A stretch of 36,359 nt of DNA. It comes from an uncultured Spiribacter sp. (GTDB lineage Bacteria > Pseudomonadota > Gammaproteobacteria > Nitrococcales > Nitrococcaceae). The translations under genes and the position numbers were made by a program. Location: contig CAJXMI010000011.1 of the NCBI GenBank assembly GCA_913056145.1, forward strand, positions 1 through 36,359, in the 5' to 3' direction. Shown piece by piece: positions 10,193 through 21,722 of this stretch. A model generated the notes under the pieces. That model was not told where the DNA came from. It searched no databases and worked only from the letters and a program-made list of their open reading frames with translations. Position 1 is the first letter of the stretch, and each line of letters begins with the position of its first letter.

Positions 10193-10216
10193 TTCAGTTG
10201 CAGCAGGATGTGCGCC

Positions 10217-10858
10217 ATGCAGCGCCTAACCCCACGACAGTCAGAGATCCTCCAGCTGGTCCGTCGGTTCCTTGAGCAGACCGGCTATCCGCCCACCCGC
10301 AGCGAAATCGCTGCCGAGCTGGGGTTTCGCTCGGCCAACGCCGCCGAGCAGCATCTCCGGGCCCTGGCCCGCAAGGGCGTCATTACCCTGCAGCCCGGGG
10401 CCTCGCGTGGCATCCGCCTGTGCGACAGCCACACATTGGCTGCAGGTGATGATGCCGGCGCCAACGATGCCAGCGCCGGGCTGCCCGTGGTTGGCCGCGT
10501 TGCCGCCGGCAGTCCGCTGCTTGCCGAGTCCCACATCGACCGTTACTGCCAGGTCAGCAGCGGGCTGTTCTCGCCCGGAGCCGACTACCTGCTCAAGGTG
10601 CGGGGCATGAGCATGCGGGATGCCGGCATTCTCGACGGCGATCTGCTGGCCGTTCACCGCACCAGCGATATCCGCGAGGGACAGATCGTGGTCGCCCGCA
10701 TTGATGACGAGGTCACGGTCAAGCGTTTCTCGCGCAGCGGGCACCGTGTGCAACTGCTCCCCGAAAATCCCGACTTCGAGCCTATCGAGCTGGATCTGCG
10801 CCATCGCGAACTCACGATCGAGGGCGTTGGTGTCGGTGTCATCCGCGCCGGGCTCTAA
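10217..10858 (+). CDS. lexA: SOS repressor LexA
   Basis: A 213-residue repressor with autoprotease. The N-terminal winged helix-turn-helix has [25 protein letters not shown] and the recognition-helix region [16 protein letters not shown], all close to E. coli LexA, agreeing with the E. coli-type operator seen upstream. The cleavage site Ala97-Gly98 ([11 protein letters not shown]) and the Ser132 (GMSMRD)/Lys169 (EVTVKRF) dyad are present, so RecA-stimulated self-cleavage should work. I chose ATG 10217 over ATG 10208 because AGGA at 10205-10208 is eight bases upstream and because the family begins MxxLTxRQ. It heads an operon with imuA, 23 bases downstream behind an AGGAGG. The linker between domains is a little long ([10 protein letters not shown]). 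Confidence 0.97.
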
Positions 10859-10881
10859 CCCGTCCAACAGGAGGTTTCCGC

Positions 10882-11556
10882 ATGGAACAGGCCATTCATC
10901 AGCTCCTTGAGCAGCCGGGCATCTGGCGCGCCAGCGACCGGCATGCGGGCAGTCAGCCCACCGCTCATACCCATGTGCCCACGGGCTTTTCAGGGCTGGA
11001 CGCAGTGCTGCCGGGCGGCGGTCTGCCGGCCCGCGCGCTCACCGAGGTCATGCATGCCCGCCACGGTATCGGCGAGCTGCAGCTGGTACTGCCCGCCCTT
11101 GCACGTCTCTCGCGTGGTGGCCGCTGGGTGGCTCTGGTGGCGCCGCCCTTCATTCCCTACGCCCCGGCACTTGCGGCAAGTGGCGTGGATCTCTCGCGAA
11201 TGCTGATCGTCCACCCCCACAACGACCAGCAGGCACTTTGGTCGATTGAACAGGCCCTGCGTCTGGGCACCTGCGCGGCGGTACTGGCCTGGCCCAACCG
11301 CTGCGATGACCGCAGTCTGCGGCGGCTGCAGCTTGCCGCCGAAAGCGGTGACAGCCTGGGCCTGCTCTTTCGGGATACCGCTGCCGCCAGCGAGCGCTCA
11401 CCGGCCGCGCTGCGGCTGGCGCTCGAGCGGCGCCAGGGCGGCCAGCTCGATGTACAAGTGCTCAAATGCCGCGGCATCCCCGCTGGCACGATCGGGCTGG
11501 AGGCAGGGCCTGTCGCTCCCGAGGCGCAGGCACCCTCCCTTGCACTCGCTCATTGA
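10882..11556 (+). CDS. imuA: ImuA, translesion mutasome accessory protein
   Basis: A 224-residue RecA/SulA-related protein. The start MEQAIHQLL, the segment VPTGFSGLDAVLPGGGLPARALTEVM (described here by its ends at about residues 32-57) and VLAWPNRCDDRSLRRLQLAAE are characteristic of ImuA as found before imuB. No functional Walker A is visible. In systems studied elsewhere (Caulobacter, Mycobacterium for the equivalent ImuA') it is needed with ImuB and DnaE2 for damage-induced mutagenesis. A strong AGGAGG at 10869-10874 sits seven bases before the ATG. It lies between lexA and imuB on the same strand and should be induced by DNA damage through the SOS box. Confidence 0.9.
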   Translation: MEQAIHQLLEQPGIWRASDRHAGSQPTAHTHVPTGFSGLDAVLPGGGLPARALTEVMHARHGIGELQLVLPALARLSRGGRWVALVAPPFIPYAPALAASGVDLSRMLIVHPHNDQQALWSIEQALRLGTCAAVLAWPNRCDDRSLRRLQLAAESGDSLGLLFRDTAAASERSPAALRLALERRQGGQLDVQVLKCRGIPAGTIGLEAGPVAPEAQAPSLALAH

Positions 11557-11583
11557 GCCGGCTCTCGTGGGGGCTGCATTGCC

Positions 11584-13020
11584 ATGCTCTGGCTGTGTCT
11601 TCACTTTGTCCGCCTGCCCATCGAGTCACTGAGCGGCGCGGAGACGGCTGAACATCCGCTCGTCATCAGTCATGCCAATGCCGTCATGCAGGCCAATGCT
11701 CCGGCCATTCAGGCCGGCATTCGGCCCGGCATGGCCATCGCCGCGGCCCGCGCCATCAGCGATGGACTTAGAGAGTGTGACTACTGCGGCGACCGCGAGG
11801 CGCGAATGCTCGAGCAGCTGGCCACCTGGGCCGTGCAGTTCACCTCGCGGGTCAGCCTGCAACCACCCCGTGCCCTGCTGCTTGAAATCGGTGCCAGTCT
11901 GGCCTACTTCGATGGGCTGGAGTCACTGCGCCAGGGCCTGCGCAACAGCCTGGCCAATATCGGCCATCAGGCCACGGCCGCCATTGCGCCCACACCCACC
12001 GCCGCCTGGCTGCTTGCACGGCAGGACGACACCGCGCCGGTGATCACCCGGGCCGAGTTGGGCGAGCGCCTGGCCCGCATTCCGGTTGCAGCCCTCGATC
12101 TCGAACCAGCCCGGCAAAACGCCATCCACGGGCTGGGCTGCACAACGCTGGGCGATCTGCGGGCGATTCCCGCCGACGGCCTCGCCAAGCGCCTTGGCCG
12201 TCATCTGCTGGCCACCCTGCAGCGCGCCCATGGCGAGCGGGCCGATCCGCGCGTCGACTGGCAGCCGCCGCCGCGTTTTCAGGCACGTATCGAGCTGCCC
12301 GCCGAAACCACCCATAGCGATCGACTAAGACCCGGGTTCGAGCATCTGCTGGGCGTACTCTGTGGCCAGCTCCGCTATCGCGAGGCCGGCGTCACGCGCA
12401 TCCTCTGCGAGCTGCATCACCCCAGCCACAGCCCCACCCGCCTGCGCGTCGGGATGAGCCGCCCGGGGCGCGACCCGCATCACCTTGGCATGCTGCTCGA
12501 CCAGCAGCTCGAGCAATGCCGGCTCACAACCGGTGTCATTGCCCTTACGCTAAAGGCCGATACCTTCCATGCGCTCGCTCCCGCGCCCCGCGATCTACTG
12601 GATGATGGCCAACAGGCAACGCCCGATGATGCCTGGCATCAGCTGATCGACAACCTCAGCAATCGCCTGGGGCCCGATCGAGTACGGGCACTGGCGGTGG
12701 ACGACGAGCATCGTCCCGAGCGGGCCTGGCGCTTTACCGACCCGGGCCGTAATCGTGCCAACGACCCACCTGCTCTTCCGCCGCGCCCGGCCTGGCTGCT
12801 GGGACAGCCCGTTCGGCTGATCAGCCGGGGCGGCCAGCCCCATCATCATGGCCCGCTTATCCTCGAGCACGGTCCCGAGCGGATCGAGTCGGGCTGGTGG
12901 GACGGCCAGGATGTAAGCCGCGACTACTATCAGGCCATCACGCCGGCCGGTGAGCGCCTGTGGGTGTTTCGCGAGCGTCGCGGGGAGCGCCGGTGGTATC
13001 TGCATGGCCTGTTTGCCTGA
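11584..13020 (+). CDS. imuB: ImuB, catalytically inactive Y-family polymerase-like protein
   Basis: A 478-residue protein with Y-family polymerase fold. It starts MLWLCLHFVRLPIESL, where active Y-family enzymes have the metal-binding DMDxFFAS motif, and has LLLEIGAS at about 98-105 where they have the SIDE motif; both catalytic acidic sites are thus absent, as is typical for ImuB. The C-terminal module GPERIESGWWDGQDVSRDYY and RRWYLHGLFA is the ImuB-specific tail. ImuB is thought to act as a hub bringing DnaE2 and ImuA to the sliding clamp. I could not pick out a confident clamp-binding motif. Its stop TGA shares one base with the dnaE2 ATG, so the two are coupled. Confidence 0.92.
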   Translation: MLWLCLHFVRLPIESLSGAETAEHPLVISHANAVMQANAPAIQAGIRPGMAIAAARAISDGLRECDYCGDREARMLEQLATWAVQFTSRVSLQPPRALLLEIGASLAYFDGLESLRQGLRNSLANIGHQATAAIAPTPTAAWLLARQDDTAPVITRAELGERLARIPVAALDLEPARQNAIHGLGCTTLGDLRAIPADGLAKRLGRHLLATLQRAHGERADPRVDWQPPPRFQARIELPAETTHSDRLRPGFEHLLGVLCGQLRYREAGVTRILCELHHPSHSPTRLRVGMSRPGRDPHHLGMLLDQQLEQCRLTTGVIALTLKADTFHALAPAPRDLLDDGQQATPDDAWHQLIDNLSNRLGPDRVRALAVDDEHRPERAWRFTDPGRNRANDPPALPPRPAWLLGQPVRLISRGGQPHHHGPLILEHGPERIESGWWDGQDVSRDYYQAITPAGERLWVFRERRGERRWYLHGLFA

Positions 13021-16000
13021 TGCAACAGACCCGTCCCGCCCCCCGCTATGCCGAGCTGCACTGCCTCAGCAACTTCACTTTTCTGCGCGGCGCGTCCCAC
13101 CCCGACGAGCTGGTGGCGCAGGCCGAAAAGCTGGGCTACACGGCCCTCGCACTCACCGATGAATGCTCCCTCGCCGGCGTGGTGCGCGCCCATGCCGCTG
13201 CCCGGAAGCGGCGCCTGCAGCTCATCGTGGGCAGCGAATTCCACCTCGACGACGGGTTGCACCTGGTGTTGCTGGCACCGGACCGTGCCGCCTACGGCCG
13301 GCTCTCGGCCCTTATCTCATTAGGTCGCAGTCAGGCCGACAAGGGCCACTATCGCCTTGCCCGCAGCCACCTCCAGGACGGCGTGCCCGGCTGCCTGGCA
13401 CTCCTGGTTACCACTCCGCGCACCAATGCCGAGGCAGCGGCATGGGTAGCACGCACATTCCCCGACCGCGCCTGGCTCACAACCTCGCTGCAGCGCGACG
13501 GGTTTGACACACAGCGGCTTACCCGCTGTCAGATGCTGGCGGCCGAACACGGCCTGCGTGCGGTTGCCAGTGGCGGCGCGCTCATGCACGCCCGCGGCCG
13601 GCGCGCCCTGCAGGACACGCTCACCGCCATCCGCTGCCGTCAGCCTCTCGCCGCCCTGGGGCGCGCACTCGCGCCCAACGGCGAGCGACATCTGCAGCCG
13701 CGGGAGCAGCGGGCACGCGACTTTCCGCGCGCCATGCTGGCCGAGACCCTGCACATTGCCCGGCGCTGCCGGTTCTCGCTTGACGAGCTGCACTATGAAT
13801 ACCCCGAAGAGCTGGTCCCCGCCGGATACACCGCGGCCGGCTGGCTGCGCCACCAGGTCGAGACCGGTGCGGCGCGTTGCTGGCCCGACGGGGTCCCGGA
13901 GCGCATCCGCCAATCCATCCAGCACGAGCTCGCCCTCATTACCGAGCTGGCCTACGAGCCCTACTTCCTGACGGTCCACGATGTGGTCACGTTTGCCCGA
14001 TCGCGCGGCATTCTCTGCCAGGGCCGGGGGTCAGCCGCCAACTCCACGGTGTGTTACTGCCTGGGCATCACTGCTGTCGATCCCAGTCGCTCGAGTCTGC
14101 TGTTTGAGCGCTTCATCTCGCGCGAGCGCAACGAGCCCCCCGACATCGATGTCGACTTTGAGCATCACCGCCGCGAAGAGGTCATTCAGTACATTTACCG
14201 CAAGTACGGCCGGCATCGCGCGGCCATTGCCGCTACGGTCATCTGCTATCGCCCCCGCAGCGCCCTGCGCGATGCCGGCCGCGCCCTCGGCCTGGATACC
14301 GACCAGGTAGAGCGGCTTGCCGGCAGCATGCAGTGGTGGGATGGCCGCCAGATCCATCCCGAGCGCCTGCGCGAGGCCGGCTTTGACCCTGACAACGCCG
14401 TTATCCGGCGGCTGCTAACGCTGGTCGAGCGCCTGATCGGGTTTCCACGCCATCTGTCGCAACATGTTGGCGGCTTCGTCATCAGTCGCGGCCCGCTCAG
14501 TGAGCTGGTACCCACCGAAAACGCCGCCATGGCCGGGCGCAGCATTATTCAATGGGACAAGGACGATCTTGAGACCCTGGGGCTGCTCAAGGTCGACTGC
14601 CTGGCGCTGGGCATGCTGAGCGCCATCCGCCGCAGCTTCGAGCTCATCGAGCGCCATCACGGACGCCCGCTCACCCTTGCCAGCGTGCCGGCCGAAGACC
14701 CGGCGGTCTACGCCATGCTCTGCGAGGCCGATACCGTTGGCGTCTTCCAGGTCGAGTCACGGGCGCAAATGGCGATGCTGCCGCGGCTGCGGCCACGACG
14801 CTTCTATGATCTGGTCATCGAGATCTCCATTGTCCGGCCCGGGCCCATCCAGGGCGACATGGTTCACCCCTATTTGCGCCGGCGGGCCGGCGAAGAGCCG
14901 GTGGATTACCCCAGTGACGAGGTACGGAGTGTGCTCGAGCGCACCCTGGGTGTACCCATCTTCCAGGAGCAGGTCATGCAGCTCGCCGTTGTCGCCGCCG
15001 GGTTCAGCCCGGGGGAGGCCGATCAGCTGCGCCGGGCAATGGCCGCCTGGAAAAAGCGCGGCGGCCTCGATCCCTTTCGCAAACGCCTGCTCGACGGGAT
15101 GGCCGAGCGGGGCTATGCACCGCAGTTTGCCGAACGGGTATTCGAGCAGATCTGCGGCTTTGGCGAATACGGCTTCCCCGAGTCGCATGCCGCAAGCTTT
15201 GCGCTGCTGGTCTATGTCTCCGCCTGGCTCAAGCGCCACTACCCGGCCGCGTTTACTTGTGCCCTGCTCAACAGCCAGCCCATGGGCTTTTACTCGCCGG
15301 CCCAGCTAGTGCGTGACGCACGCACTCATGGCGTTGCCGTGGAAGGGGTGGATGTGCGCTACAGCGACTGGGACTGCACCCTCGAGGAAGCCATCCATAA
15401 CACCCCGACACTGCGTCTTGGCCTGCGCCTTGTGCACGGCTTTGGCGAAGCGGCCGGTCAGCGTCTGATGCGGGCCCGTGACAGCGAGCGGCCGTTCCGT
15501 GACAGTGCCGACCTGGCGCGGCGTGCCGAGCTGGACCGGGGCGCCATGCGTGCCCTGGCCGATGCCGGCGCCCTGGCCGGGCTCAGTGGCCACCGCCATC
15601 AGGCCTGGTGGTCGGTGCTGGGCATTGAGGCAACCACGCCGCTGCTCGAACCCGCCACGGTGCAGGAGCCCGCCCCGGCACTGCCCGCTCCCAGCGAGGG
15701 CCAGGATCTTGTCAGCGATTACCGCAGCCTGGGGCTTACTCTGGGCCGCCACCCCCTCGCGCTGCTGCGTCCACGTCTCCAGCAGCTGGGCTATCGGCCG
15801 GCCAGTCACCTTGCCACCACCGGCCATCGTCGCATTGCCCGTGCCGCCGGTCTGGTAACCAATCGCCAGCGCCCGGGAGCGGCCGGCGGGGTGGTATTCC
15901 TCACACTCGAGGACGAAAGCGGCACCGTCAATGTGATTGTCTGGAAGGACCTGGCAGAGCGCCAGCGTCATCTGGTCATCGGCGCCCGCCTCTTGGCCGT

Positions 16001-16112
16001 GGTGGGCATCTGGGAGCGGCGCGACAGGGTCCGGCACCTTGTTGCCGGGCGCTTCGAGGACCACAGCCACCTGCTGGGTGAGCTACCCACTCGTTCGCGC
16101 GATTTTCACTGA
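13020..16112 (+). CDS. dnaE2: Error-prone DNA polymerase DnaE2 (ImuC)
   Basis: A 1030-residue C-family polymerase, shorter than replicative DnaE as usual for DnaE2. The PHP domain begins at [19 protein letters not shown]; the catalytic aspartate cluster is PDIDVDF at 374-380; [22 protein letters not shown] and the finger region [18 protein letters not shown] are intact. An OB-fold ([20 protein letters not shown]) and the DnaE2-type end SRDFH close the protein. ATG 13020 overlaps the imuB stop by one base and begins the family's homology; an in-frame start 60 bases earlier lies inside imuB and is rejected. It performs mutagenic lesion bypass together with ImuA and ImuB under LexA control. Confidence 0.96.
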
Positions 16113-16186: not shown

Positions 16187-18019
16187 CTGAGCGACACCGG
16201 CACCAACCCGGCCAATCCCGCGGCGGTCCTCGAGCGGGTCTTCGGATACCGCCACTTCCGTGACCGCCAGGGCGAGATCATCGAGTGGGTGGCAGCCGGC
16301 GGCGACGCCCTTGTCCTGATGCCGACCGGCGGTGGCAAATCGCTTTGCTACCAGATTCCGGCGCTGGTCCGCGAAGGCGTGGCGGTGGTGGTCTCGCCGC
16401 TCATCGCCCTCATGGAAGACCAGGTCAGCGCCCTGCGCCAGCAGGGCGTAGCCGCCGCGGCGCTGCACTCGGGGCTGGATCCGGCCGCGCGCAGCCGCAT
16501 CGAGGCCGATCTCCATGGCGGCACGCTCAAGCTGTTGTATGTGGCACCCGAGCGCTTGCTGGGCAGTGATCTGCTCCAGCGGTTGTCGCGGCTGCCGGTG
16601 GCCCTGTTCGCAATCGACGAGGCGCATTGCGTATCGCAGTGGGGGCATGACTTCCGGCCGGAGTACCTGCAGCTCGGCATTCTGGGCGAGCGTTTCCCCA
16701 CGGTACCGCGCCTGGCCCTGACCGCTACCGCTGATCGGCGCACCCGGGCCGAGATTGCCCGCCAGCTCCTGCCCGATACTGCGCGCACCTTCATCTCAAG
16801 CTTCGACCGGCCCAATCTGCGCTATCACATTGGGCTCAAACAGCGGCCGCGCGAGCAGCTGCTGCGCTTTATCCAGGAACGCCATGCCGGCAACTCGGGG
16901 ATTGTCTACTGCATGTCGCGCCGGGCCACCGAGCAGATTGCCGACTGGCTGAATGCCCGCGATATCCCCGCCCTTGCCTACCATGCCGGACTCGAGGCCA
17001 GCCAGCGCCAGGCCCATCAGACCCGCTTTCTGCGTGAGGACGGGCTGATCATGGTGGCGACGGTGGCCTTTGGCATGGGCATCGACAAACCCGATGTACG
17101 GTTCGTGGCCCATCTCGATCTGCCCAAGAGCCTCGAGGCCTACTATCAGGAAACCGGTCGTGCTGGCCGCGATGGCCTGCCGGCGGATGCCTGGCTGGTG
17201 TACGGCCTGCAGGATATCTATCGGGTGCGGCAGATGAGCGCGGCATCCGAGGCCAGTGAAGACCACAAGCGGGGCGAGCATCAGCGCCTTGAGGCCCTGC
17301 TGGGGTTCTGCGAGGCAACCGGTTGCCGGCGCCCGCCCCTGCTTGCGCATTTTGACGAATCCCATGCCGGAGCCTGCGGCAACTGCGACAACTGCCTGGC
17401 GCCGCCGGCAACGCGCGACGCCACCGATGCGGCGCGCCGCGCGCTGTCCTGTGTCTATCGAACCGGCCAGCGCTTTGGCGCCGGCCATGTCATCGACGTA
17501 CTGACCGGCGGTAACAGCGAGCGTGTTCGCGAGCTTGGCCATGACCGCCTCAGCACCTGGGGCATTGGCCGCGACATTGCCCGGCCGGTCTGGCAGTCGA
17601 TCATCCGCCAGCTACTGGCCCATGGCATGCTGGCACCCGACCCGGGTGGCCATGGCGGCCTGCAACTCACCGAGGCCTGCCGGCCGCTGCTGCGCGGCGA
17701 GGCACGCATTACCCTGCGTGAAGACACGATCCAGCCAGGCGCCAGCACCCGGCGTTCACGCTCCCCTGGCGATGACTGGCAGGGCGATCCCGACAGTTGG
17801 GCGGCATTGCGGGCCGAACGCCGACGTCTGGCCGAAGAGGCCGGTGTGCCGCCCTATGTCATCTTCCATGACGCCACGCTGGCGGCCATGCTCGAGCGCC
17901 GTCCGCGCACCCTCGAGGAAATGGCCGACGTGCCGGGCGTGGGCGCCACCAAGCTGGAGCGCTACGGCGAGGCATTCCTCGCGGCGCTGGCGGCATTGCC
18001 CAGCACATCCGGCGCCTGA
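16187..18019 (+). CDS. recQ: ATP-dependent DNA helicase RecQ, probable CTG start
   Basis: A 610-residue helicase, the E. coli length, if translation starts at CTG 16187. It includes motif 0 ([15 protein letters not shown]), Walker A MPTGGGKS (45-52), DEAH (144-147), [16 protein letters not shown], the zinc-binding CGNCDNC, the winged-helix region and a C-terminal HRDC domain ([12 protein letters not shown]). RecQ unwinds DNA 3' to 5' in recombination and fork repair. No in-frame ATG, GTG or TTG exists between the upstream part of the frame and GTG 16289; that GTG would remove motif 0, whose Gln contacts adenine. CTG 16187 has GGAGA at 16175-16179 at good spacing and gives an MSDT-like start. 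The 3' end overlaps convergent leuA by 58 bases. It lies 74 bases after dnaE2 and may be part of the same damage-response transcript. Confidence 0.93.
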
Positions 18020-19662
18020 ACCGCCAGGCGGTTGATGCCGCTCAGCACCGCCTGGATGGAGGCGGTTACGATATTGGCATCCATCCCCACACCAAACACA
18101 TCGCCGTCGACGCCCTCGGCAGCCAGCTCCATAAAGCAGATCGCGCCGGCATCCGCGCCGTGACTCAGCGAATGCTCCTCGTAGTGCTGAACGCGCACGG
18201 GGCTGTCCAGGGCATTGAGAAGGGCATCAATCGGCCCATTGCCAAAGCCGGTGAGCGTAACCTCCTCGCCGTCCCGTGCCAGGCGCAGGCGCAGCCCCTG
18301 GCGCTCGCCCGCGTCGAACAGCGCATGCCCGCGGTAATTCAGAGGTGACGCCAGGCTCAGATACTCGCGCTGGAAGATCTCCCAGAGCTGCTCGGCGCGC
18401 ACCTCACCCCCCTCGGTGTCGGTATGGCTCTGGACGACTCGCGAGAACTCCACCTGCAGGCGTCGCGGCAGGCTGACGCCGTACTCCTGCTCAATGAGGT
18501 AGGCAATGCCCCCCTTGCCCGACTGGCTGTTCACCCGGATGACCGACTCGTAGCTGCGGCCAATGTCCCGCGGGTCAATCGTAAGATAGGGCACCTGCCA
18601 GGGCGCATTCTCGCCCTGCACGGAAAACCCTTTGCGAATGGCATCCTGATGCGAGCCGGAAAACGCGGTAAAGACCAGATCACCCACATAGGGATGACGC
18701 GGATGCACGCTCATGCCGGTGCAGTGCTCCACCGTGCGCAGCACCTCGTTGATGCGCGAGAGATCCAGCCCGGGATGCACCCCCTGGCTGTAGAGGTTGA
18801 GCGCCAGGGTCACCAGATCCACGTTACCGGTGCGCTCGCCGTTGCCAAAAAGGCAGCCCTCGACGCGATCGGCGCCTGCCATCAGCGCGAGCTCGGCCGC
18901 CGCCACCCCGGTGCCCCGATCATTATGCGGATGGACACTCAGCACAATGCCGTCGCGGCGCTCCAGATGCCGGTGCATCCACTCGATCTGATCGGCGTAC
19001 ACATTGGGTGTCGACATCTCCACCGTGGCCGGCAGGTTGATGATCACCGGGGCGGCGGGTGACGCCTGCCAGGTGTCGGTAACGGCGTTGACCACGTCGA
19101 GCGCAAAGTCGGGCTCGGTGGCGCTAAAGGTCTCGGGGCTGTACTGAAAGCGCCACTGCGTGTCGGGCCGCGCGGCCGCCAGGTCGGCGATCTGCCTGGC
19201 GGCTCCCACCGCCATCTCCCGCACGCCGTCCGGTGCCTGACGAAACACCGTCTCGCGAAACACCGGCGAGGTGGCGTTGTACACATGAATGATGACCCGC
19301 GGGGCACCGGCCACGGCCTCGAAGGTGCGCTCGATGAGTTCGGGCCGGGCCTGTGTCAGCACCTCGATCCAGACCCCCTCGGGGAGGGCGTCGGTCTCGA
19401 TCAGGTGGCGGACGAAGTCGAAATCGGCCTGCGAGGCCGAGGGAAAGCCCACTTCGATCTCACGAATCCCGATATTGACGAGGCAGTCATAGAGCTGGCG
19501 CTTGCGCGCCACATCCATGGGCTCAAAGAGTGCCTGGTTGCCGTCGCGCAGATCCGTGCTCATCCACACCGGCGGCGCGGTCAGCGTGCGGTCTGGCCAC
19601 TGGCGGTCGGCAAGTCGCACGGGGCGGTAGGGCTGGTATTTCTGGCTGGGGTGATCGAGCAT
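17962..19662 (-). CDS. leuA: 2-isopropylmalate synthase (long, type-2 LeuA)
   Basis: A 566-residue enzyme that condenses acetyl-CoA with 2-ketoisovalerate, the first committed step of leucine synthesis. It is of the longer class seen in actinobacteria, fungi and some proteobacteria: [16 protein letters not shown] near the start, the catalytic/metal motif [19 protein letters not shown], the metal-binding [26 protein letters not shown], and a C-terminal allosteric domain (about 430-555) responsible for leucine feedback. ATG 19662 follows GGGAGAG at good distance and matches the family start; the longer open frame to 19854 is only the leader region read in the same frame. Upstream sits the leucine-rich leader peptide leuL, with complementarity to this ribosome-binding site. 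Its 3' end overlaps recQ by 58 bases. Confidence 0.95.
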
Positions 19663-19667
19663 CGGTA

Positions 19668-19794
19668 GCTCTCCCTCGGTATCAACGCGTCGCTTGCCGC
19701 CTTGGGCGGTCCGGGTGCAGTCAACGATTGGGGGGGGATAGATTAGCTGCGCGCAAGGCGCAGCAGCAGCCCGAGGGGCAGGCCGCGAGAGAGC
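19668..19794 (-). promoter_or_regulatory. Probable translational attenuator of leuA (leader arm and SD arm)
   Basis: On the minus strand GCTCTCTCGCGG (19794-19783, codons 10-14 of leuL) can pair with CCGAGGGAGAGC (19679-19668), which contains the leuA ribosome-binding site: eleven pairs including one G-U, broken by one mismatch. A ribosome stalled at the Leu codons 10-21 would cover the first arm and leave the leuA site free; completed leader translation would let the arms pair and hide it. No stem followed by a U-run is present in the 80 bases between leuL and leuA, arguing against a classic intrinsic-terminator attenuator. A short hairpin CCGCC-CAA-GGCGG and a run of eight C lie between the arms. 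The pairing is seen; the mechanism is inferred. Confidence 0.55.
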
Positions 19795-19823
19795 AGTCGA
19801 CGCTGTGCAGACCGAATACGCAT
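19743..19823 (-). CDS. leuL: leu operon leader peptide (26 residues, 8 leucines)
   Basis: A short frame, MRIRSAQRRLLSRGLPLGLL followed by LRLARS, from ATG 19823 to TAA 19743-19745, located 80 bases before leuA. Eight of 26 residues are leucine, including three consecutive CTG codons at positions 19-21, the pattern expected of an amino-acid-sensing leader upstream of a leucine-biosynthesis gene. There is no ribosome-binding site, and the candidate promoter places transcription start at or within a few bases of the ATG, so it may be translated leaderless. Arginine is also frequent (8 residues), so part of the leucine content could be chance in a GC-rich sequence, but position, length and complementarity to the leuA site support the call. 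Confidence 0.7.
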   Translation of the reverse strand: MRIRSAQRRLLSRGLPLGLLLRLARS

Positions 19824-19829
19824 GCGCGT

Positions 19830-19859
19830 AGTTAAGCGACAAGGGCCCCATCAAGTCAA
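19830..19859 (-). promoter_or_regulatory. Candidate leuL-leuA promoter
   Basis: On the minus strand TTGACT (19859-19854, five of six consensus bases) is followed after 17-18 bases by CTTAAC/TTAACT (19836-19830), a weak -10. The start would fall at about 19823-19826, at the leuL ATG. The strong -35 and location support it; the -10 does not. Confidence 0.4.
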
Positions 19860-19881
19860 GCCATTCCGTTAAACTGGGTCC

Positions 19882-21722
<1,841 letters not shown>

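Follow-up and report, generated by a model that had tools for sequence, protein, structure and literature searches.

The window, i.e. the whole stretch of 36,359 nucleotides analysed here, comes from a 1.87-Mb draft genome and carries on its reverse strand a leader ORF (19823-19743, MRIRSAQRRLLSRGLPLGLLLRLARS) of 26 amino acids, 8 of which are Leu, followed by leuA. A 26-residue leader with 8 Leu and three adjacent CTG codons in front of leuA had been described in an earlier sequence-only reading, and all of these were found at the positions it gave, the CTG CTG CTG run being codons 19-21. The leuA product scores 751.8 bits against NCBIfam TIGR00970 (cut-off 697.4), a cut-off passed by 1 of 14 control genomes. 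The 3' end of leuA overlaps a convergent RecQ-like gene (16289-18019, forward strand) by 58 bases (17962-18019), and an ABC transporter gene diverges upstream of the leader, at 19882. Elsewhere in the window, positions 10208-16112 hold a row made of LexA, a weakly SulA-like frame, a weakly ImuB-like Y-family frame and an error-prone DnaE2-type polymerase, which is likely an SOS mutagenesis cassette with its last two frames overlapping. The features of the leuA region are the following.

17962-19662, reverse strand: leuA, yeast-type 2-isopropylmalate synthase (TIGR00970 / PRK03739), assigned with NCBIfam TIGR00970.
19658-19679, reverse strand: leuA translation start region, with the SD CGAGGGAG at 19678-19671 and the ATG at 19662.
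19697-19709, reverse strand: hairpin P2, CCGCC-CAA-GGCGG, which 57 of 200 window shuffles match.
19698-19742, reverse strand: C-rich, G-poor tract after the leader stop, a candidate Rho-loading (rut) region by its composition.
19743-19823, reverse strand: leader peptide ORF of 26 codons, 8 of them Leu, probably leaderless; the C-terminal LLLR.ARS is found in 5/5 congeners and variants of it in relatives.
19746-19764, reverse strand: hairpin P1 (GCUGCGC / GCGCAGC), over the last Leu codons and the leader end.
19783-19804, reverse strand: leader arms that can pair with the ribosome-binding site and the start codon of leuA, namely AGCGUCG (19804-19798) and GCUCUCUCGCGG (19794-19783), with CUCUCUCG (19793-19786) as the longest contiguous helix.
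19830-19859, reverse strand: promoter-like pair, TTGACT (19859-19854), an 18-nt spacer and TTAACT (19835-19830), its end lying 6 nt upstream of the leader ATG.

Five of the 14 congeners, own genome counted, possess a TIGR00970-type leuA, and the nine that lack it include drafts of 74-91% completeness. A second LeuA, of the TIGR00973 type, is present in 14/14 genomes of the genus. In the own genome its gene (G000:C15:5001-6533, locus L002) lies after a hydrophobic frame, with no Leu-rich leader immediately upstream.

At least 80 comparison loci were gathered. A regular expression for the leader matched 36 loci, some of them by chance, and 23 loci entered the leader tables, while ten loci with degenerate leaders were left unscored (L010, L012-L014, L016, L019, L023, L026, L027 and L070). 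Alignment A1 comprises 18 loci, the Acinetobacter, Alkanindiges and Ferrovum loci being excluded, and L003 was kept out of the alignments as its leader is identical to that of L090 and the two apparently represent one contig. In all five leuA-bearing congeners the ORF, the promoter spacing, the Leu run, the stop-codon hairpin and the C-rich, G-poor tract are kept; the short frame, whose loss in close relatives was to count against the earlier reading, is thus retained together with its Leu run. The five leaders are 26-28 residues long, end in GLLLR.ARS or RLLLRLARS and stop 80-89 nt before leuA. Furthermore, the same features largely recur in family relatives, Betaproteobacteria and Moraxellaceae. 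The motif LLLR.[AP]R[SIT] and its variants precede leuA in loci of the family, of Betaproteobacteria (among them Cognatazoarcus, Denitromonas, Methylobacillus and Methyloversatilis), of Alkanindiges and of Acinetobacter, and the underlying codons CTGCGC...GCGCA are near-invariant. Judged by this comparison, the leader is real.

The transcript of the leader is probably leaderless, starting at or near the leader ATG, as the position of the promoter suggests. In the window the promoter scores 8/12 (shuffle p 0.03), and CTTGAC, an 18-nt spacer and TTWACT are found in 5/5 congeners; a scan of 19400-20100 with a stricter consensus did not return this promoter among its matches. Over 39 loci, a promoter scoring at least 8/12 ends 5-9 nt before an in-frame leader ATG in 35, including all five congeners, and the arrangement reaches a shuffle p of 0.05 or less in 32; where several ATGs were available (21 of the 39 loci), the best one was taken, likewise in the shuffles. 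The loci scoring below 8 are L079, L082 (Acinetobacter), L097 and L103. The earlier proposal that the candidate promoter lies at the leader ATG and implies a leaderless leader peptide hence fits the spacing seen in the 35 loci.

The five core pairs of hairpin P1 are near-invariant in the 18 aligned loci. RNAalifold recovered P1 alone from these loci and reported no covariation, because P1 is nearly invariant. Each of the five leuA-bearing congeners has a single copy of the exact 20-nt P1 motif, and 0/9 of the others have one; a match with one mismatch in G019 was discarded since the open frame that holds it is unrelated. Two Acinetobacter loci use rare codons for P1, with a joint six-codon probability of 1.8e-8 and 1.2e-8 under the usage of their own leuA (a crude measure, with a pseudo-count for unused codons), and therefore the RNA, not the peptide alone, seems to be selected. 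A class-wide exact search for the P1 pattern returned 4/370 genomes, which points to a patchy distribution there; one of these four, G155, looks like a chance match.

The sequence-only reading had seen no intrinsic terminator, and this was borne out: no terminator-like site was found in 19400-20100 and no run of four or more T occurs from the leader stop to leuA +60 in the window. Among the 18 loci such a run, looked for from the leader stop to the next ATG +60, is absent in 10, including the window and 4/5 congeners, and in five of the eight loci that have one it lies beyond the next ATG. P2, being matched so often by shuffles, is weak evidence alone. The tract after the leader stop has an excess of C over G of 12 in 45 nt, which places it in the top 0.9% of window stretches. 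The C>G tract is in the top 1.5% of its own locus in 18/23 loci and in the top 1.1% in 5/5 congeners, and is weak in the other five (L009 0.124, L017 0.045, L029 0.157, L031 0.103 and L079 0.192). In 15/18 loci it ranks in the lowest fifth of the leader for pairing, and it is conserved in composition, not in sequence. Together with the presence of a rho gene in the genome, these features suggest a Rho-loading tract. Pairing of the tract with the next SD was also tried and dropped, the own partner being weaker than swapped ones in 1885/2000 cases for the genus.

The central claim of the earlier reading was a complementarity of 12 bases, with 11 pairs and one mismatch, between the leader and the leuA ribosome-binding region. 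It is exact: 19794-19783 pairs with 19679-19668 by 10 Watson-Crick pairs and one G-U pair, with one mismatch. In the predicted fold, AGCGUCG adds 7 more pairs with CGAUGCU (19664-19658), which contains the leuA start codon, and the minimum-energy fold of the window leader buries both the SD and the AUG of leuA. Only 5 of the 72,696 window 12-mers (both strands, arm itself counted) reach 11 pairs. However, 188/5000 synonymous recodings of the leader equal this match, about a 4% event, and the complementarity in the window alone is thus weak evidence. The probability of pairing between SD and leader ORF is 0.70, a value reached by 15/300 recoded leaders. Folding, one of the checks that had been suggested, does contain the arm-SD helix; the fold (-73.8 kcal/mol) has a z-score of -2.12 and is equalled by 5/200 shuffles. 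The idea that stalling at Leu codons frees the leuA site was modelled by equilibrium folding with the ribosome footprint masked. In the window the SD is 0.17-0.30 unpaired with the ribosome at any Leu codon, versus 0.28 when the leader is free; modelled stalls thus leave it mostly paired, while some stalls raise the unpaired fraction in L084 (0.55), L085 (0.41) and L086 (0.45).

The same pairing was then sought in relatives. Contiguous leader-to-SD helices of 8, 7, 7, 9 and 10 bp are present in the five congeners, at leader nt 31-38, 48-54, 56-62, 37-45 and 32-41 respectively, the first being the window, and in all five the SD-complementary arm lies 6-22 nt upstream of the last 24 nt of the leader. 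Hence the arm at codons 10-14 holds for the window but shifts between codons from one congener to another. As metric, the length of the longest unbroken helix that the leader body can form with the SD core was added up over loci; a value as high as that of the five congeners was obtained in 0/1000 synonymous recodings, 27/1000 same-codon permutations and 57/2000 partner swaps; for 11 family loci the counts are 0/1000 recodings, 3/2000 swaps and 11/1000 permutations. With the window removed, the four remaining congeners give 1-4 of 400 recodings over 18 settings and 40/1000 permutations. Among 25 target offsets the SD is the peak for this metric (z 4.1-4.2). The metric and its windows were picked after weaker metrics had been tried, and the genus tests rest on five genomes, of which L084 and L086 look closely related. 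The excess is little or none in the remaining 6 family loci (16-187 of 400, depending on the setting; 129/1000 permutations) and none in 7 loci outside the family (857/1000 recodings as high).

Other measures are less favourable. The mean duplex energy is equalled by synonymous recodings in 71/300, 42/300 and 52/300 cases for 5, 11 and 18 loci. Partner swaps on duplex energy favour the own SD (p 0.007, 0.0035 and 0.0095 for the same sets), and without the window p is 0.030 for 4 congeners, 0.020 for 10 family loci, 0.065 for 17 loci and 0.223 for 7 loci outside the family, under a swap null that is uneven, with z down to -3.3 at other offsets. The 12-mer matches of the four other congeners are within the recoding range in 12/12 windows (best 76/1000), and across loci 12 to 254 of 300 recodings have an SD unpaired probability as low. 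Compared with 15 other window gene starts, taken from the ORF list, the own SD score is reached by 1, 1, 3, 0 and 0 of them for L001 and L083-L086 in that order; against 1839 SD-like window 14-mers the counts are 336, 517, 553, 24 and 108, the own SD being no better partner than many of these for L001, L083 and L084. The strongest single arm was seen in the relative L087, where 12 bp join it to the SD of the next ORF (a helix as long in 23/500 recodings). Since the tests disagree in strength, SD masking in the genus is likely but not established. The comparison of related upstream regions that had been proposed thus returned the ORF, the Leu run and a helix of 7-10 bp in 5/5 congeners, but with an arm that drifts and other metrics that are weak. 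Likewise, attenuation at translation is partly supported by the helix excess pooled over congeners, while by other metrics the excess is absent or marginal and other loci give little or none.

In many relatives the ORF that follows the leader is not leuA but a second uORF, located between leader and leuA and containing CTG CGA CTG or a variant. In the 5 loci in which leuA comes next, its start codon lies 80-89 nt after the leader stop; in 13 loci with the second uORF in that place, the uORF begins 79-93 nt after the leader stop. The nearest in-frame ATG was used in 8 of these 13 uORF loci, and one farther upstream was taken in L090, L091, L092, L031 and L113, where the nearest gives 94, 91, 132, 109 and 99 nt. 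A further RNA element, termed element B and likewise located between leader and leuA, was aligned from L088:1390-1483, L017:2391-2484, L100:1385-1478 and 20 further loci (alignment A2). Its 12-bp stem has 94.9% of cells paired and 8/12 pairs changed on both sides, and on each of five measures 0/500 shuffles did as well. A 5-bp helix between the loop and the downstream sequence exists in compensatory versions in 21/23 loci, compared with a mean of 5.7 and a maximum of 12 in shuffles and with 10/23 for the backwards-downstream control. This register test was chosen after a first pseudoknot score had barely discriminated (5.30 vs a mean of 4.91, sd 0.19 and maximum 5.43 for permuted partners). 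Together, the stem and the loop helix likely form a pseudoknot, as their compensatory changes suggest.

A model of element B (R1) matches 22/54 genomes of the order, once in each, 16 of them being training genomes. Twenty-one of the 22 matches adjoin leuA; in the remaining genome, G026, the two are on different contigs, leuA starting right at the end of one and the element being close to the end of the other. All 22 are among the 31/54 genomes with a TIGR00970-type leuA, and the nine leuA genomes without a match are five congeners, G002, G035, G036 and G037; none of the 14 congeners has a match. When R1 was run against the window and 77 loci, the 23 training loci excluded, 8/77 loci matched, all just upstream of leuA. 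Three of these eight matches are weak (E 0.0017-0.053), and two of the eight are Parvibaculum loci. In the class, R1 was found in 5/276 genomes, two of them new and with leuA downstream. No Rfam match was obtained for element B in the loci scanned. All this is most simply read as a loss of the second stage in the genus. We tentatively propose, at somewhat less than even chances, that the window is a shortened form of an undescribed two-stage leucine relay of proteobacterial yeast-type leuA genes, in which the leaderless leader would control initiation at the second Leu uORF and translation of the uORF would control element B before leuA; in the genus the uORF and element B would be gone, leuA would stand at the start of the uORF and the first stage would mask leuA.

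Other short leaders were observed on the way. Sixteen loci among L095-L112, from the same order and other families, have another, mostly leaderless-looking, leader type ending in PAS; its stop codon leads directly into a stretch resembling AGGAG and, by eye, lies in a hairpin. PAS-type leaders precede element B in 13/16 loci. L132 and L133 have divergent short Leu leaders before element B, and in L132 a long hairpin over the leader stop codon was judged by eye.

We prefer to interpret the locus as a leader-peptide attenuator that senses leucine and works without an intrinsic terminator, an interpretation that we hold to be about evenly poised between right and wrong. RNA polymerase would start at, or no more than a few bases from, the leader ATG and a ribosome would enter at once. 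With ample Leu-tRNA, the ribosome would reach the stop codon and leave, P1 would close, the codons upstream of the Leu run would pair with the SD and start codon of leuA, leaving leuA untranslated, and Rho would load on the naked C-rich tract and end transcription. With scarce Leu-tRNA, the ribosome would stall in the Leu codons and cover the arm and P1, so that the SD would be open and leuA translated. SD masking is the partly supported step, with some comparative evidence in the genus, the Rho step is proposed from base composition, and both could act together.

Rho might also act alone, in a manner similar to tnaC and mgtL, which we regard as rather unlikely. Rho bound at 19742-19698 would stop transcription near P2 once the ribosome leaves, a stalled ribosome would prevent this, and the SD match would be a by-product of C/U-rich Leu and Ser codons. 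The tract speaks for this with a composition that is kept while its sequence is not (top 1.5% in 18/23 loci), and with less pairing than four fifths of the leader in 15/18 loci; so do the 79-93 nt from leader stop to next start in 18 loci, a scale of about one Rho site, the rho gene and the failure to find an intrinsic terminator. However, the tract is weak in 5/23 loci and does not reach the length of a classical rut, stalling at codons 19-21 would leave it uncovered by the ribosome, and the arm-SD excess in the genus would be unexplained. That P1 and P2 resemble a pause hairpin and a terminator stem could point to classical transcription attenuation through a terminator missed by the scan, but with no terminator-like site in 19400-20100 and no T-run of four or more in 10/18 loci we find this very improbable.

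The leader may instead act through its product, the C-terminus LLLR.AR[SIT] arresting the ribosome and leucine, or some other ligand, serving as co-factor. The recurrence of the C-terminal peptide from gamma- to betaproteobacteria is in line with such nascent-peptide control; the codons are conserved too, though, rare ones in Acinetobacter included, which points at RNA, and PAS-type leaders of the same order lack the motif, so that we judge it improbable. Still less probable is a leader peptide without regulatory effect, a relic or a chance ORF, as could be imagined in a genus whose 14 genomes all have the second LeuA (TIGR00973): the ORF, P1, promoter spacing and tract are conserved over large distances.

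The kind of control considered here, leader-peptide attenuation, is already known. The leader of the enterobacterial leuABCD operon (Rfam Leu_leader) ends in an intrinsic terminator; it shares with the window Leu codons in a leader before a leu gene and differs by that terminator, none having been found here. Leu_leader has no gathering match in the window and is not among the matches at E up to 10 in 19500-20000, where two Rfam matches, far below gathering, include no leader family. Rfam leader families were also absent from the whole window at gathering, from 20 relative loci (one tRNA was found) and, at E up to 0.5, from L002, L088, L108, L113 and L005. In the Rho-coupled leader peptides tnaC and mgtL a leader frame is followed by a Rho-loading region, as by the candidate tract in the window, with different inducing signals and with Rho action here being predicted. 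A study of Shewanella leaders reportedly mentions leuA. Actinobacterial LeuA is of the same yeast type as that of the window.

For the actinobacterial LEU element, the part of Seliverstov et al. 2005 (PMC1262725) available to us proposes a helix between a run of Leu codons and the leuA SD and describes a pseudoknot adjacent to it, in leaders lacking other attenuator elements. As far as that part goes, the terminator-free SD-pairing design has in LEU a proposed precedent by analogy: both have a Leu-rich leader peptide upstream of leuA and oppose Leu codons or leader to the SD, and LEU, compared by its description alone, differs by its pseudoknot, the genus of the window having no R1 match. The LEU pseudoknot may have its proteobacterial counterpart in element B. 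In Corynebacterium glutamicum, RNA-seq reports, in the portions available, present a putative leader peptide of leuA that contains four Leu codons (PMC4046766, PMC3890552). A leaderless attenuator leader peptide that starts with AUG is described, in the accessible part of the source, for rnTrpL/peTrpL of Sinorhizobium meliloti (PMC10117765); it resembles the window leader in being leaderless and differs in being a Trp leader and a transcription attenuator that also yields an sRNA. Among the open-literature matches listed, neither a description of this leader or of element B nor one of leucine control of a proteobacterial yeast-type leuA was found, although Vitreschak et al. 2004 on proteobacterial attenuators may mention related leaders; the accessible portions of PMC4833913, PMC2965389, PMC8632094 and PMC2864571 do not contain the term leuA.

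The locus would represent a compact, testable, terminator-free and probably leaderless attenuator, and its comparison with related leuA leaders exposes in them a conserved RNA element, without an Rfam family match, that likely bears a pseudoknot.
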